Below the pieces are notes generated by a model that made no database searches, had not been told where the DNA came from, and worked only from the letters and a program-made list of their open reading frames with translations. Shown here one piece after another: positions 34,024 through 39,042 of a stretch of 43,095 nucleotides of DNA (positions are counted from its first letter, which is position 1; every line of letters begins with the position of its first letter). The position numbers and the translations under genes were made by a program. Source of the stretch: a virus; the IMG/VR virus record IMGVR_UViG_3300021962_000210, positions 1-43,095 of that record. One strand, written 5' to 3'.

Positions 34024-35253
34024 ATGCGAATAACTGATGTCCTCGTCGAAACGAATACAAATGCCAAGTCACGATTAGATGAAAAACCAATGGGGATCCT
34101 AAGTAAATTAGGAAACAAAGCCCTTTCTAAGTTGGGTAGTGGTCGTGCTGCTGGTCGCCTAAGCACTGGTGATCTAGCTAACAAAATACACAAAGAATAT
34201 GATACCTATCTAGGTAAAACAGGACAAGAGCCTAGCAAAGAATCTGTATTGGCTTTCCTACAATTCAAGGGATATCCTACGCAAGGCGCAGAAAAGATCC
34301 TAAACAGTCCCGAAGCACAAGGTCAAGCACCTACTGGACCACTAGGCAAGGGTAGTCCTGGTGCTGCTCGTCCAGGTGCTGGTAAAGCCAGTGCTGCTCC
34401 TGGCGCAGATAAGATTGAACCTAAAATGGGAGATGAGCCGGCAGGTGATGCAACAGCTCCAACTGATGGTAAGACAGAACCAACAATGGGGGCAGAAAAA
34501 CCTAATTTTAGTACAGGTCCTCAACCTACAATGAAAGGTGCAGACGGTAAAGCATTACCAACAGGTATTCCTAGTACAACAGATCCACTAGCAGCTATAC
34601 GTAAAAATGCAGGACTACCTCCTGCTGCTGATAAACCTGCTGCACCGGCAGCAGATGTTCCAGGTGCTCCACCAGGAGATGACAAGAAAGCTGCTGCTAA
34701 ATCACGTATCGATCAGATGAAAAAAGATAAAGCAGCAGGTACTGGATTCGGAGGCTTTGTTAAAGGTGCTAAGGCCAAAGGTCTAGTAACGGCAGGTATG
34801 TATGAAGCAACAGCTATTCCTAGCTCTGTGATAGACAAAGCTCTGTTAAAGGCTGCACAAGATGCAGAACGCATGGGTATTGGTCAAGCATTAGGAGATC
34901 CAGAAGACGATCAACAAGGTGCTCCAGCTGGTCCTATGAGCAAAGGCGGTGCAGGTGGTGGACAACAAGGCGGATTCATGGCCGGGGTCAAACAAGGAAT
35001 GGGTGGCGGCGCAGCAGGTGATGAAGATCCTGCTAAGGTTAAAGGTAGTTTGAATATAAATCAGCTGTCGTCTCTGATGCCAGGTGTTGACCCTAGACAA
35101 CTACAACAGGCTGTAGCACGTATTAAAGCTGGTCAAGAGCCAAGTCGTATGCATATGCAGACATTGGCACAGGCATTTACTGCTATTGTGCAAGCTGATC
35201 CACAGACTACACAACAGATCATGATGCTACTCAAGCGTGTAAGTGCTGCTTAA
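34024..35253 (+). CDS. Ala/Gly/Pro-rich late protein, unknown function
   Basis: A 409-aa protein with two helical islands in low-complexity sequence. Residues about 45-95 (LANKIHKEYDTYLGKTG, ESVLAFLQFKGYP) and 260-300 (SSVIDKALLKAAQDAERMG) look folded, as does the C-terminal helix pair (DPRQLQQAVARIKAGQEPS to the end). Between are GAA, PGA, GGG runs. The N-terminal MRITDVLVE contains LVE, which fits the L-x-E cleavage rule of gp21-type proteases, so an internal head or scaffold protein is possible. It is expressed late by its own promoter and ends in a likely terminator shared with the convergent gp26 extension. Function is not assigned. Confidence 0.7.
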   Translation: MRITDVLVETNTNAKSRLDEKPMGILSKLGNKALSKLGSGRAAGRLSTGDLANKIHKEYDTYLGKTGQEPSKESVLAFLQFKGYPTQGAEKILNSPEAQGQAPTGPLGKGSPGAARPGAGKASAAPGADKIEPKMGDEPAGDATAPTDGKTEPTMGAEKPNFSTGPQPTMKGADGKALPTGIPSTTDPLAAIRKNAGLPPAADKPAAPAADVPGAPPGDDKKAAAKSRIDQMKKDKAAGTGFGGFVKGAKAKGLVTAGMYEATAIPSSVIDKALLKAAQDAERMGIGQALGDPEDDQQGAPAGPMSKGGAGGGQQGGFMAGVKQGMGGGAAGDEDPAKVKGSLNINQLSSLMPGVDPRQLQQAVARIKAGQEPSRMHMQTLAQAFTAIVQADPQTTQQIMMLLKRVSAA

Positions 35254-35480
35254 AAGAAAGGTAATCCTGTCTTTTTAGTAGTTTCGAGATTTTCTTTTAT
35301 GATCTCAGCCACGAGTAAACGTTCTTCCTGGCTGAGCATCATGGCTTCGGAATAGCTCATTCCTCGCATATACCAACACATTTTAAGAACTTCTTTCTTA
35401 ATACCCAGAGCCTCTTTATCCATCTGCTCTACTATCTGTAAGATCTCCGACTCTGGTAGTGTTAAGATCTTACGGCGAAA
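35250..35480 (-). CDS. -1 frame extension of the gp26-like gene (tail-assembly T-like segment)
   Basis: An open frame in the -1 register relative to gp26, with no ATG before 35423. After a slip at the heptamer 35486-35480 it adds 76 residues to the first 287 of gp26, giving 363 aa. The added part is helical: FRRKILTLPESEILQIVEQ, then MDKEALGIKKEVLKMCWYM and SEAMMLSQEERLLVAEIIKEN, ending KTGLPFF. Separate translation from ATG at 35423 would give only 57 aa and has no good ribosome site. In siphophages and in P2, such frameshifted extensions of tail chaperones bind the tape measure; here the tape-measure gene is the divergent neighbour of gp26. The frame is seen; the frameshift is inferred. Confidence 0.62.
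   Translation of the reverse strand, partial: FRRKILTLPESEILQIVEQMDKEALGIKKEVLKMCWYMRGMSYSEAMMLSQEERLLVAEIIKENLETTKKTGLPFF
35252..35275. terminator. Bidirectional intrinsic terminator between convergent genes
   Basis: AAAAGAAAGG, loop TAAT, CCTGTCTTTT: ten paired positions with one A-G mismatch, followed by a further T on the plus strand; the minus strand also ends in a T-rich arm. It begins at the stop codon of the 409-aa gene and lies inside the last codons of the gp26 extension, so it would end transcription from both sides. Confidence 0.5.
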
Positions 35481-35486
35481 AAATTT
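35438..35486 (-). promoter_or_regulatory. Candidate -1 programmed ribosomal frameshift signal
   Basis: Read on the minus strand in the gp26 frame: slippery heptamer A AAT TTT at 35486-35480 (followed by two more T, so T TTT TTC is also available), a 6-nt spacer at 35479-35474, then a perfect 9-bp stem GTAAGATCT (35473-35465) with AGATCTTAC (35446-35438) around an 18-nt loop that contains the gp26 stop codon. A CTAC in the loop can pair with GTAG just downstream, a possible weak pseudoknot. All three elements have the spacing of known -1 signals. Confidence 0.65.
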
Positions 35487-36340
35487 GATTGATCCATCAC
35501 GATAGGAGTGCTAAAGAGATGCTCGCATTCTGGACATTTTACTTTTTGAGGTTTAAGTTCTACTTGTTCTTTAATACCAGTGATGTGTTTGTGTATAGTA
35601 TCAAATACATTACTTGGAGCATTGTCGATAAATTCTTTAATCATTTTCTGATCGCTCACAGGACCGGTAGGTGTTTCTATTCTTGCAATGCATCCCGAGA
35701 TAAGATTAACAGTGTACTCAGTTAATCTAACAAAGCCTTTGCCAAACTTGTCCATTTTTTCTTCGTCGGTAAGTTTGTCATCTGTGGCAATGTCAACTAA
35801 TTTTTGCTGTTCTAAAGTTTGTAATTGTGCTTTAGAAAGTTCTTGATAGCTGTATGGTCTAATGATTACTTTCAATGGATCGACAGCAATGGTATTTTGA
35901 TATTTAAAATTTTCAAAAGTTTCTAACCAACCTCGTAGATTCATTTCGTAGTCACTGGTTGTATCACAGCTTGGACAGGTAACAGTAATATCCATGTTCT
36001 CACCGTAAGTGGCTAACCTAATAGCAATTAACGCACAGTCTACATCGATACTAGGCATCTTCCAAGGATCTAATATAGCTGGCATACAGCTTTTGATAAT
36101 TTCAACAGTGGTCTGACCGGTTAACAATGCATCCGGAGTTTTAAATAACAATTCGTCTTTAGCAGTCATAGCATATACAGGGTACTCGCCGTTAGTACTT
36201 CTGTCAATAGTACCCGGAGGATAATACTCGCCGTTTGATGGCAATTTAATCCAAATTTTTGGTTGTCTAAAATACTGACTTAGTGGGTTACTATTTGATT
36301 TGACTGTTTGTGTAGCTTCATTTGCAACAAAATCTGACAT
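35462..36340 (-). CDS. 26: Baseplate hub assembly protein gp26-like
   Basis: A 292-aa protein of the T4 baseplate gp26-type family (T4 gp26, 208 aa). Typical features are IWIKLPSNGEYYPPGTID near 29-46, YAMTAKDELLFKTPDALLTG at 56-75, IIKSCMP and IDVDCALIAIRLATYG. Two Cys pairs, CPSC at 122-125 and CPEC at 269-272, suggest a zinc ribbon. The ATG has a good GGAG site six bases upstream and a late promoter before it. The gene ends 2 codons after a perfect stem-loop start, with a slippery site at codons 286-287 that could send a fraction of ribosomes into a 76-residue extension. It is divergent from the tape-measure gene. Confidence 0.8.
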   Translation of the reverse strand: MSDFVANEATQTVKSNSNPLSQYFRQPKIWIKLPSNGEYYPPGTIDRSTNGEYPVYAMTAKDELLFKTPDALLTGQTTVEIIKSCMPAILDPWKMPSIDVDCALIAIRLATYGENMDITVTCPSCDTTSDYEMNLRGWLETFENFKYQNTIAVDPLKVIIRPYSYQELSKAQLQTLEQQKLVDIATDDKLTDEEKMDKFGKGFVRLTEYTVNLISGCIARIETPTGPVSDQKMIKEFIDNAPSNVFDTIHKHITGIKEQVELKPQKVKCPECEHLFSTPIVMDQSNFFAVRS

Positions 36341-36402: not shown

Positions 36403-39042
36403 ATGACTGTACTAGTCGATATTCCTGGAGTTGGTGTTGTAGAAGCTAGAAACGCTGCTACTGAAGCCACTCTGCGCTCAATTTTAAAAACCATGCAAGG
36501 AATCCAGAAAAATACTGGAGGTAGTGGACGCGGAGGTGGTGGCGGAGGTGGTGGCGGTGCTGCTGAGGGTGCTGCCGGTGCAGGAAAAATGGGCAACGCG
36601 GCATTCGCTGCCGGAGTTGCTATAGGAAAATTTGCCACTGCTGTAAAGAGTACAGCAGCAACGATTGATAGATTAGGCACTAGCATGATCAACACCGTTG
36701 ATAGTTTAGCTAACATGGGAGATAGTGTAACTGGTGCAGCTGGTGCATTAGGCGGACTTGTTAGTAAGATACCGGTGGTGGGCGGAATGATGGCTGCGGC
36801 ATTTACCGCAGTAGCCAGTGCAGTTGAACATACATCAAAATCATTCCAGGCGGCAACGGCCAGCGGCGCAACGTTTGGCGGCAGTGTTCAACGATTTGGA
36901 GCTGCTGCCAGTGCCGCAGGCATGACAATGGATCAGTTTGGCCAACTCATCGGAAAAAATGGTGAGGCAATGATGTTGTTAGGTGGTACTACTGAAGACG
37001 GGGCCAAACGTTTTGCTGACATCAGTAGGAATTTAAGAACATCTAGTAAAGAATTATATAACTTAGGCTACAATACTCAAGATGTAAATGAAGGATTAGC
37101 AGCTTATACAAAACTAACAAAATTAACTGGCGGAGCTAGTCAAATGACCAATGCTCAGTTAGTATCAGGAACCAAACAATACTTAAAAGAATTAGATTTA
37201 TTAGCCAAGGTTACTGGAGAGAGCAGAAAAGAAATAGAAGCTAGACAGGCTAAAATAGCTGCCGATGCCAGAGTACAAGCGGCGGTCGGTGCATTAGATC
37301 CAAAAGTAGCAAAAGCATTTAATGATACTATTAGTGTATTGCCTAAATCTGTCGATGGAGTTACAACCGATCTTATGACAACATTGGTGGGTATGACTCC
37401 CGATGCTCAAGCATTTCAAAGCATGATGAGCAATACCGCAGAAGTTATGAAAGAATTAGGCGCTAAAGCGCAAGCCGGTGGAGAACTTACCGATGCCGAT
37501 AGAGAAAGATTAAGAAACACTCTCATTGCAGAAGCAAAAGCCAAAGAAAACGAAATTAATAATATTGCAAAATATAATCAAGAATTTGGATTTTTGCAAC
37601 AGGTAGTAACTGATGCTAAAAATTTAGAAAAGAATGGTATTGCTCGTGCAAGACAAAATCAAACAGATACACAAAATACAACCGATGGAGTAAATGCTAA
37701 CCTGGTCAGTATGCAACAGCAATTGGCAGAAATGAGTAATTCATTTCAATTATTTTTAGCAGGTCAAGGTAAGTTACTAGGCAGCATGATGGAATTGCTG
37801 GGGCAATTCGCTGGGTTTGTTCAAAAATATTTGTTACCAATAATACAAGATTATCTAGTGCCTGCTCTGAAAGCAGTTGCTAAGTTTATTGTCAACTATG
37901 TTATACCTGCATTTGAATGGATGATCAAAACTGTTATCAGTTTAGCTAAACAGGTATATGAATTCCTTACACCTATTTTTGGATACCTTGCAGACCAGAT
38001 TAAAAAACATGTGATTCCTGCCCTTCTAGAAATTGTGTTGTTTGTTGAAAGAAATTGGAAACCAATTCTTGCTGCTTTTGCTACTTTTATTGCTGTGTCC
38101 GTTGTGCCTCCATTAATAGCATTTGTCGGAGCACTGGCATCATCTCTTTTAGCTTTTTTACCATTTGTAGCAGTAGGTGCCGCAGTTGTAGCAGCATTTA
38201 TTTTAATAGACAAAATAATGGATCGATATGGTATAAAAGTGAATATGTTAACAGATGCATTCAGCTGGTTAAAGCTTAGGATGGAAGACTGGTGGATGTG
38301 GATGAAGGAAGGAGTATATAAATTTTTAAATATAATCCCTGGCATGCGAGGCGATTATGATGAAAAATTAAAAGAAATTAAACAAGAAAGAGAAGGTAAT
38401 AAAGAAGAACGTGAAAAAATCGAAAAAAAGCTTACAGCTGATGCTCTAAAAAATAAAGCAGATGCAGAAGCACGTGACAAAGAAATTGACAAATTAGAAA
38501 ATAAAAGACGAGAAGATCTTAAAAACGGCAATTACGGAAAGGCATTCGGCTTACCTTCGATCGAAGAAATCAAACGTATGGGCGGTCCTAACTTTGGAGT
38601 TCCTGCATACACAGCCCCCGGCGGGGGTGGTGCAGCTGGCGGCGGTGGCGGCCCCGAAGATTCTAGAACAGGTGAAGACTATAAAGGCGTCAGCGGTTCA
38701 ATGAGTCCAGACACATTGGCAAGAATGCAATACGGAAGATTAACTGGAGCCACGCACGAAGAAACACGTAGAGCTATAGAACGACAAGCAGAAGAAAAGA
38801 AAGCTGCCAAAGAAAAAGCAGACAAAGAAGCAGAAGAGAAGAAAAAAGCAGAGGAAAAAGCCAAAGAAGAAGAAAAGAAAAAAGGCAGTCCTCAGAAGTC
38901 TGCTGAAGTATTACTAGCAGAATTAAATACTAAGCTAGATGCAAATAATCAATTGATGAAAGATTTGGTTCGATTAAATGACGGACAATTAGTTGCTGTA
39001 GAAGGTTTAGGTAATGATGCTTTCCGTTATCCTAGATCTTAA
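36403..39042 (+). CDS. Tail tape measure protein (gp29 counterpart)
   Basis: An 879-aa protein that sets tail length and is later released through the tube. Signs: mostly alpha-helical with long heptad-like stretches; a glycine run at about 43-53; a hydrophobic segment near 120-143 and a long one at about 556-606 (PPLIAFVGALASSLLAFLPF), typical tape-measure membrane segments; and a C-terminal Lys/Glu coiled region around 795-830. T4 gp29 has 590 aa. Position beside gp26 and ahead of the portal gene supports the call. No lytic domain is visible. The ribosome site is weak (AGAAG). Confidence 0.72.
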   Translation: MTVLVDIPGVGVVEARNAATEATLRSILKTMQGIQKNTGGSGRGGGGGGGGGAAEGAAGAGKMGNAAFAAGVAIGKFATAVKSTAATIDRLGTSMINTVDSLANMGDSVTGAAGALGGLVSKIPVVGGMMAAAFTAVASAVEHTSKSFQAATASGATFGGSVQRFGAAASAAGMTMDQFGQLIGKNGEAMMLLGGTTEDGAKRFADISRNLRTSSKELYNLGYNTQDVNEGLAAYTKLTKLTGGASQMTNAQLVSGTKQYLKELDLLAKVTGESRKEIEARQAKIAADARVQAAVGALDPKVAKAFNDTISVLPKSVDGVTTDLMTTLVGMTPDAQAFQSMMSNTAEVMKELGAKAQAGGELTDADRERLRNTLIAEAKAKENEINNIAKYNQEFGFLQQVVTDAKNLEKNGIARARQNQTDTQNTTDGVNANLVSMQQQLAEMSNSFQLFLAGQGKLLGSMMELLGQFAGFVQKYLLPIIQDYLVPALKAVAKFIVNYVIPAFEWMIKTVISLAKQVYEFLTPIFGYLADQIKKHVIPALLEIVLFVERNWKPILAAFATFIAVSVVPPLIAFVGALASSLLAFLPFVAVGAAVVAAFILIDKIMDRYGIKVNMLTDAFSWLKLRMEDWWMWMKEGVYKFLNIIPGMRGDYDEKLKEIKQEREGNKEEREKIEKKLTADALKNKADAEARDKEIDKLENKRREDLKNGNYGKAFGLPSIEEIKRMGGPNFGVPAYTAPGGGGAAGGGGGPEDSRTGEDYKGVSGSMSPDTLARMQYGRLTGATHEETRRAIERQAEEKKAAKEKADKEAEEKKKAEEKAKEEEKKKGSPQKSAEVLLAELNTKLDANNQLMKDLVRLNDGQLVAVEGLGNDAFRYPRS

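Follow-up and report, generated by a model that had tools for sequence, protein, structure and literature searches.

The gp26-like gene on the minus strand of the viral sequence studied here very probably carries a programmed -1 frameshift signal near its 3' end, by which two forms of a tail assembly chaperone would be made from one gene. The sequence, to which we refer as the window, is the whole stretch of 43,095 nt of IMG/VR record IMGVR_UViG_3300021962_000210. Judged from sequence comparison, programmed -1 frameshifting is the best explanation of this locus because the slippery heptamer is conserved, the phenylalanine codons at the site are fixed, the stem that follows covaries, and the -1 frame is under selection.

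The gp26-like protein matches the Pfam family PF12322 (T4_baseplate) with an E-value of 2.3e-20 and a score of 73.6 bits (gathering cut-off 24.5), and PHROG 150 (baseplate hub) over positions 3-233 of the 282 positions of the profile. When P0001 was used as the query against the window's own 43-kb record, which is a fragment, one match was returned. The 3' end of the gene reads AAATTTTTTCGCC, then GTAAGATCT, an 18-nt loop containing TAA, and then AGATCTTAC (Table 1). The elements listed by the first-pass annotation, namely A AAT TTT, T TTT TTC, a 9-bp stem and an 18-nt loop holding the stop codon, were all found on the minus strand where it had placed them, and its 6-nt spacer holds when measured from A AAT TTT; measured from T TTT TTC, the spacer to the stem is 3 nt. 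The -1 frame is indeed open; however, its length had been put at 76 codons, and we count 75 beyond the slip, or 77 with the two phenylalanine codons. This frame reads F-F-R-R-K-I-L onward, and its stop codon lies at 35252..35250.

Table 1. Positions of the gp26-like gene, the elements of the putative frameshift signal and the neighbouring large gene in the window.
Feature	Position	Strand	Remarks
gp26-like gene	35462..36340	minus	zero frame, 292 aa, putative short form (TAC-N / G-like); PF12322, PHROG 150
Slippery heptamer T TTT TTC (U UUU UUC)	35477..35483	minus	in the gp26 frame
A AAT TTT, overlapping T TTT TTC	35480..35486	minus	possible second slip site, would give an identical fusion protein
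5' arm of the 9-bp stem	35465..35473	minus	count of paired alignment columns
3' arm of the 9-bp stem	35438..35446	minus	pairing and double changes in relatives
Zero-frame stop TAA	35462..35464	minus	inside the hairpin loop (18 nt)
-1 frame extension (putative TAC-C / T-like)	35250..35483	minus	F-F plus 75 codons plus stop; the fusion would be 363 aa
879-aa gene, possible tape measure protein	36403..39042	plus	adjoins the gp26-like gene, divergent from it

We compared the site in two sets of relatives. Set A (window-type) consists of 80 loci kept out of 385 gp26 relatives, one of which (L001) is 100% identical to the query, and set B (S-PM2-type) consists of 80 loci kept out of 284 with the S-PM2 gp26 as the query, including one (L135) identical to that query. 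The loci were found by six peptide patterns for each set; one of the set A patterns, VMDQSNFF, covers the slip site, and set A was thus partly selected for those residues, though not for those codons, while none of the set B patterns lies over the slip site. All 80 set A loci and all 80 set B loci, i.e., 160 of 160, have the heptamer T TTT TTC in frame, whereas A AAT TTT is found in 78 of 80 set A loci and in only 5 of 80 set B loci. In two set A loci, L039 and L073, A AAT TTT is broken and T TTT TTC is retained. Therefore, U UUU UUC is the better candidate for the slip. The first-pass annotation was right that a slippery site is present, but the invariant heptamer is T TTT TTC rather than A AAT TTT, which it had taken as the main site. 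We rejected A AAT TTT as the essential heptamer in general owing to its rarity in set B; it may be a second site in the window's clade, and slipping at either heptamer leads to the same protein.

The codons at the site are also fixed. The Phe-Phe pair is encoded by TTT TTC in 62 of 62 distinct gp26 proteins of set A and in 57 of 57 of set B; elsewhere in the same genes, phenylalanine is encoded by TTT 690 times and TTC 139 times in set A (83% TTT), and by TTT 467 times and TTC 208 times in set B (69% TTT), counts that are not independent since the sequences are related (clustering at 90% identity leaves 50 clusters in set A and 35 in set B). The other Phe-Phe pairs of these gp26 genes use all four codon combinations.

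The -1 frame behind the heptamer is of similar length within each set. Counted from the start of the zero-frame stop, it runs for 206-215 nt in 77 of the 80 set A loci and for 167-194 nt in all 80 set B loci. As for the three exceptions in set A, L018 and L059 end before that length, and L003 is interrupted at 35 nt; the last of these matches L002 until shortly after the gp26 stop and then diverges, breaking the -1 frame, which reflects either a contig join or a real loss. With the first ten codons left out, pN/pS in the -1 frame is 0.28 among 44 set A sequences (those of the 50 representatives that are of equal length) and 0.30 among 35 set B sequences, whereas the remaining two frames, interrupted by stop codons in every sequence of the comparison, give values of 1.1 to 1.9. 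Sequence pairs with pN above 0.35 were skipped, these being 0 of 946 in set A and 10 of 595 in set B for the -1 frame, and more for the other frames. By these measures of substitution, the -1 frame is under coding selection.

The 77-residue extension is predicted by AlphaFold2 to be all-helical with a mean pLDDT of 90.7, in agreement with the compact helical segment that had been proposed from the letters of the window. The proposal that the extension lacks a convincing start of its own is borne out as well: the -1 frame of L001, the locus identical to the window, contains no ATG, GTG or TTG between its opening and the 40th nt beyond the first base of the zero-frame stop. The first ATG in this frame, at 35423, is located 41 nt past the start of that stop, inside the conserved segment, and would yield 57 aa. 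A search of the extension against Pfam gave nothing above a cut-off, and the best match in BFVD was an uncharacterised phage protein (E-value 6.5e-3), followed at a distance by a tape measure chaperone (2.4) and a tail assembly chaperone (3.4), both too weak to use. VIA-align against the PDB gave 31 chains, the best of which (Z 5.8) is unrelated. At its 3' end, the extension overlaps the 3' end of a 409-aa ORF on the opposite, plus strand (34024-35253) by 4 bases, 35250-35253; this ORF has no PHROG match.

The hairpin was rejected as stand-alone evidence. Perfect 9-bp arms with loops of 3-25 nt occur at 9 start positions in the 43-kb window (three of them belonging to one longer hairpin), compared with a mean of 6.25 in 20 dinucleotide shuffles, and the 70-nt fold at the site has a z-score of -1.19, with 24 of 200 shuffles equally stable. 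We judge the signal to be real because it is conserved in relatives, not from the hairpin itself. The stem was counted in 49 of the 50 set A representatives (below 90% identity to one another, and not including L003, L018 and L059), one being dropped since its extension is the same as another's. The nine pairs are formed in 89.6% of the resulting 441 cells (shuffled mean 82.0); 33 cells have both sides changed (shuffled mean 8.6), and the covariation score is 0.262 versus 0.144 in shuffles, 0 of 500 shuffles being as high in either of the latter two measures, although such shuffle counts are not to be read as probabilities because the stem was taken from one of the aligned sequences and the sequences are related. 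When the partner was slid by 1-3 columns, every stem measure dropped except the number of pair types, which was equal (9) at +1. Two other counts, of doubly changed pairs (4) and of further pair types (9), show no excess, as 222 and 279 of 500 shuffles, respectively, were as high. Of the 9 pairs, RNAalifold on the same alignment keeps only the inner 5, with compensatory changes in 2; alignment A6 holds 39 of the 50 set A representatives and the window. Taken at the level of the alignment, the covarying 9-bp stem is a putative stimulatory structure in the window's clade.

The 50 nt past the heptamer fold with a mean of -12.3 kcal/mol in set A and -10.9 kcal/mol in set B, compared with about -6 kcal/mol for segments inside gp26, and rank among the most stable 5% of such segments of their own gene in 28 of 50 set A and 19 of 35 set B representatives. 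An unusually stable fold of this length is also present in S-PM2, Atu_ph07, PA5oct and Phosso, but was not found in the 50 nt past the heptamer in RaK2, XbC2, PBECO4, Munch, CBB, BF, GAP32, Kaldavass or Hallingskeid. Since these nine RaK2-like phages are without it, the stem appears to be a feature of some lineages rather than a general one, and we rejected the idea of one hairpin common to all lineages. Over positions 35200-35700, a search of Rfam gave one match, with an E-value of 0.31 and far below its gathering score, and one promoter and no terminator were predicted, the same as in shuffles. The comparison of relatives' gp26 loci that had been suggested as a check thus turns out in favour of the signal with respect to the heptamer, the covarying stem and the coding -1 frame.

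The signal extends beyond the two sets. We took 16 named giant phages as representatives of the 63 phage records matched by tblastn, and added SCTP-2 from a second search. All 17 have an in-frame heptamer near the end of gp26 followed by an open -1 frame; the heptamer is T TTT TTC in 15 of them and T TTT TTT in XacN1 and RAS14. S-PM2, phiW-14 and KVP40 have T TTT TTC with a -1 extension, HTVC008M has T TTT TTT with a -1 extension, and the metagenomic sequence LR756511 is a less clear case, in which T TTT TTC precedes the stop by 70 nt and the -1 frame is open. With a profile built from window-type extensions, all 17 giant-phage extensions score above every shuffle, with E-values from 1e-14 to 0.022 (the weakest being that of XaC1) against 0.22 for the best shuffle; these profile searches included 1100 shuffles, 50 of which derive from a two-residue fragment of HTVC008M, and HTVC008M itself was not counted. 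Alignment A1 holds 44 of 49 set A sequences, the window and 13 of the 17 named giant phages. A tblastn search with the extension gave only three records at E-values up to 1 in the named phages (Atu_ph07 twice, and Phosso), and the other giant-phage extensions were located by position. The extensions of RaK2 (L083:4831-5049) and PBECO4 (L086:3816-4034) match PHROG 18291, which is listed as of unknown function; these members could be re-annotated as the C-terminal part of a long chaperone.

T4 presents a different arrangement. Its record has two PF12322 genes, gp26 and gp51, whereas one such gene was found in 10 of the 11 frameshift phages tested; none was found in SCTP-2, whose gene came from tblastn. 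The heptamer was not found in the last 100 nt of T4 gp26, nor in the last 75 nt of any of the nine T4-type gp26 genes readable to the end among 10 loci, the tenth (L198) ending before the gp26 stop. In 9 of these 10 T4-type loci and in T4 itself, gp51 continues in frame into one kind of tail; the exception is L204, where the gp51 frame from the start of the match is short. Profile comparison indicates that the cyanophage extension is homologous to the C-terminus of T4 gp51: the S-PM2-type extension aligns with the gp51-tail profile at a probability of 96.6 and an E-value of 4.8e-10 (hhalign), and the S-PM2-type profile finds the T4 gp51 tail at an E-value of 1.8e-7 (alignment A2, 23 of 35 set B representatives and S-PM2; alignment A3, 7 of 11 gp51 tails). 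Two PHROG families are matched by the S-PM2 extension as well: PHROG 150, over positions 231-281, which the match of the window's gp26 leaves free, and PHROG 634, baseplate hub assembly catalyst. The window-type extension has a weak link to the S-PM2-type extension (probability 26.7, E-value 7e-4) and no convincing one to the gp51 tail (probability 3.4). Moreover, S-PM2, KVP40, phiW-14 and gp51 were not found by the window-type profile, and the giant phages were not found by the S-PM2-type profile. We therefore dropped direct homology between the window-type extension and the T4 gp51 tail; that the window-type extension is equivalent to the S-PM2-type extension and the gp51 tail is suggested mainly by position and the shared F-F-R start. 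Because T4 gp26 and gp51 both match PF12322, gp51 looks like an in-frame GT. The earlier description of T4 as keeping gp26 and gp51 as adjacent separate genes holds in that there are two genes, but not in the sense of a simple separate G and T.

The gene order bears on the role of the two products. A tail assembly chaperone gene usually stands between the tail tube and tape measure genes, and gp26 of S-PM2 and KVP40 has a tail tube gene directly upstream and a large gene downstream. In S-PM2, gp26 follows the tail tube gene (PF23849) and is followed by the extension and by the gene of a 1167-aa protein, S-PM2p209 (L115:5357-8860), whose matches to a tape measure family are confined to its tail-lysozyme part; in KVP40, the tail tube gene (PF06841) likewise precedes gp26 and the extension, and the next gene encodes a 656-aa protein of unknown function. 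S-PM2p209 has an ADP-ribosyltransferase match near its N-terminus (PF01129, E-value 1.3e-5, above the cut-off) and a phage tail lysozyme match near its C-terminus (PF18013, E-value 7e-25). In the window, the gp26-like gene lies beside the putative tape measure gene but is divergent from it rather than placed ahead of it. The 879-aa product of that neighbour has no match in Pfam and matches PHROG 14121 (a virion structural protein in the head and packaging category) at an E-value of 1.9e-10; for the RaK2 member of PHROG 14121, the annotation notes similarity to a tape measure protein. The gp26 model has the HK97 tail assembly chaperone 2ob9 as rank 1 of 996 chains aligned by VIA-align (Z 6.1 over 100 residues, rmsd 4.7), a match that is below Z 8 and tied with unrelated chains, and Foldseek gave no PDB match to this model at an E-value of 0.001 or less. 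By sequence, no solved relative was found at an E-value of 0.001 or less for gp26 (best 0.26) or for the S-PM2-type extension (best 0.0043, a coiled-coil protein), and none up to an E-value of 1 for T4 gp51. The reading of gp26 as the short and of the fusion as the long tail assembly chaperone, in the manner of G and GT, is supported by the S-PM2 and KVP40 gene order, the homology of the cyanophage extension to gp51, and the one- versus two-gene pattern of PF12322.

A weak match to PF12322 was also seen in P1 pmgB (L111 / L206; 44492-45373 of NC_005856), at an E-value of 2.5e-4 and below the cut-off. This gene has the tail tube gene tub on one side and the tail ruler gene sit on the other, and PmgB may be the tail assembly chaperone of P1, as PMC9024508 suggests from its position. 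No slippery heptamer was found in the last 150 nt of pmgB; its +1 frame continues uninterrupted for 70 nt beyond the first base of the stop codon.

We considered three other explanations of these observations. One accepts the frameshift but takes the product to be a structural hub variant or some other regulator rather than a chaperone; PF12322 and PHROG 150 do carry baseplate and hub names, and PMC3004832 mentions genetic support for gp26 in the T4 hub. However, the same text also lists gp26 and gp51 of T4 as hub assembly chaperones, and both the gene order in S-PM2 and KVP40 and the one- versus two-gene pattern fit known chaperones, hence we regard such a role as unlikely. Somewhat less likely still is that the downstream frame is a small gene in its own right, with ribosomes reinitiating at the gp26 stop or close to it. 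A separate ORF is in fact annotated, in some form, in KVP40, S-PM2, 13 of the 16 giant phages and SCTP-2, under names such as 'gp51' (S-PM2), 'baseplate hub assembly catalyst' (KVP40) and 'hypothetical protein' (PBECO4, CBB and others); Phosso and Atu_ph07 have ATGA at the junction; in the stretch from the opening of the -1 frame to 40 nt beyond the first base of the stop, 14 of the 50 representatives of set A and 20 of the 35 of set B have an ATG in that frame; and the window has the ATG at 35423. On the other hand, no ORF is annotated in RaK2 or PA5oct, which have no ATG, GTG or TTG up to 60 nt past the stop, and 17 of the 50 representatives of set A and 9 of the 35 of set B lack all three codons in the stretch just mentioned. 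In addition, the conservation of the extension starts at F-F-R, ahead of such start codons, the annotated ORFs of CBB and GAP32 start 42 nt after the heptamer, within the conserved region, and reinitiation leaves the fixed TTT TTC codons and the stem unexplained. Reinitiation could add a small amount of free product, for instance in Phosso and Atu_ph07.

The least probable of the three, to which we give very little credence, is slippage of RNA polymerase on the T run, which would make mRNAs whose reading frame is changed. Most of these phages have six T in a row at the site, XacN1 and RAS14 have seven and HTVC008M has eight. Six T is short for polymerase slippage, which, moreover, needs neither a C after the run nor a covarying stem 3 nt further on. 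It is a more serious possibility where T TTT TTT lies within seven or eight T, as in XacN1 (L094), RAS14 (L095) and HTVC008M (L107).

Under programmed frameshifting, we propose that most ribosomes would stop at 35462 and release the 292-aa gp26 as the short tail assembly chaperone. A minority, we infer, would slip back one base on U UUU UUC, where tRNA-Phe could re-pair from UUU-UUC to UUU-UUU, aided in the window's clade by the 9-bp hairpin, and would read 75 more codons to give the 363-aa fusion as the long chaperone. The tape measure protein would carry a coat of the short form; the long form, through its helical C-terminal part, would attract tail tube subunits for assembly of the tube to length, as for lambda gpG/gpGT. 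In T4, the same two products would presumably arise through gene duplication, with gp26 as the short form and gp51 as the long form in one frame.

This kind of frameshift is already known; the present case is well supported, and its distribution is wider than annotations show. Xu et al. 2004 reportedly described a conserved -1 frameshift of tail assembly chaperone genes, and Vladimirov et al. 2022 (Virology 566:9) is said to deal with the tail assembly chaperone genes of T4-like phages, the chaperone pair concerned presumably being gp26/gp51. As the latter work is cited in the available text of PMC10274946, the first-pass suggestion that such frameshifting may be new for T4-type gp26 has to be reduced. 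No description of the frameshift in giant phages was found in the open-access literature, the scope of our search, which lay outside subscription journals. For the giant phages examined, our results offer a likely product and role for a small ORF that has been omitted or mostly called hypothetical. They also offer a reason for the truncated look of 'gp51' in cyanophages and marine vibriophages, which is without the first ~200 aa according to the part of PMC3037559 available.

A broader reading is that a single U UUU UUC frameshift is ancestral to the whole gp26 superfamily, comprising giant phages of the RaK2, PBECO4, CBB, Atu_ph07, PA5oct and XacN1 kinds together with cyanophages, pelagiphages and KVP40-type phages, that the hairpins are lineage-specific, and that the T4 line lost the signal when a duplication made gp51 the in-frame long form. 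We consider the case for and against this reading to be evenly balanced; if true, it would be undescribed for giant phages. In the portion seen of a 2016 review (PMC5009743), G-T frameshifting is widely conserved among long-tailed phages, T4 excepted, and the one- versus two-gene pattern agrees with duplication as the reason for that exception. Frameshifting and gene duplication within one family, leading to the same protein pair, make a natural comparison.

Set beside known systems, the locus resembles lambda gpG/gpGT in that a short and a long product would come from one gene by a -1 frameshift near its 3' end, with a tape measure gene nearby, but differs in the heptamer (U UUU UUC here), in the gene, which belongs to PF12322, the T4 gp26 family, and in being divergent from the putative tape measure gene. 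In Vandenendeviridae and Andersonviridae, -1 frameshifting at a poly-T site has been proposed for the chaperone locus in the accessible part of PMC12846349; these are likewise myovirus chaperone genes, but the motif is GTTTTT and the phage group is a different one. The small ORF of KVP40 and S-PM2 follows the T TTT TTC of gp26 in the -1 frame, as here, but is annotated as a separate gene. Finally, T4 gp26 is of the same Pfam family and the tail of gp51 is homologous to the cyanophage extension; however, the long form in T4 is a separate in-frame gene, whereas the window and its relatives carry a signal for -1 frameshifting, with one PF12322 gene in 10 of the 11 phages tested.
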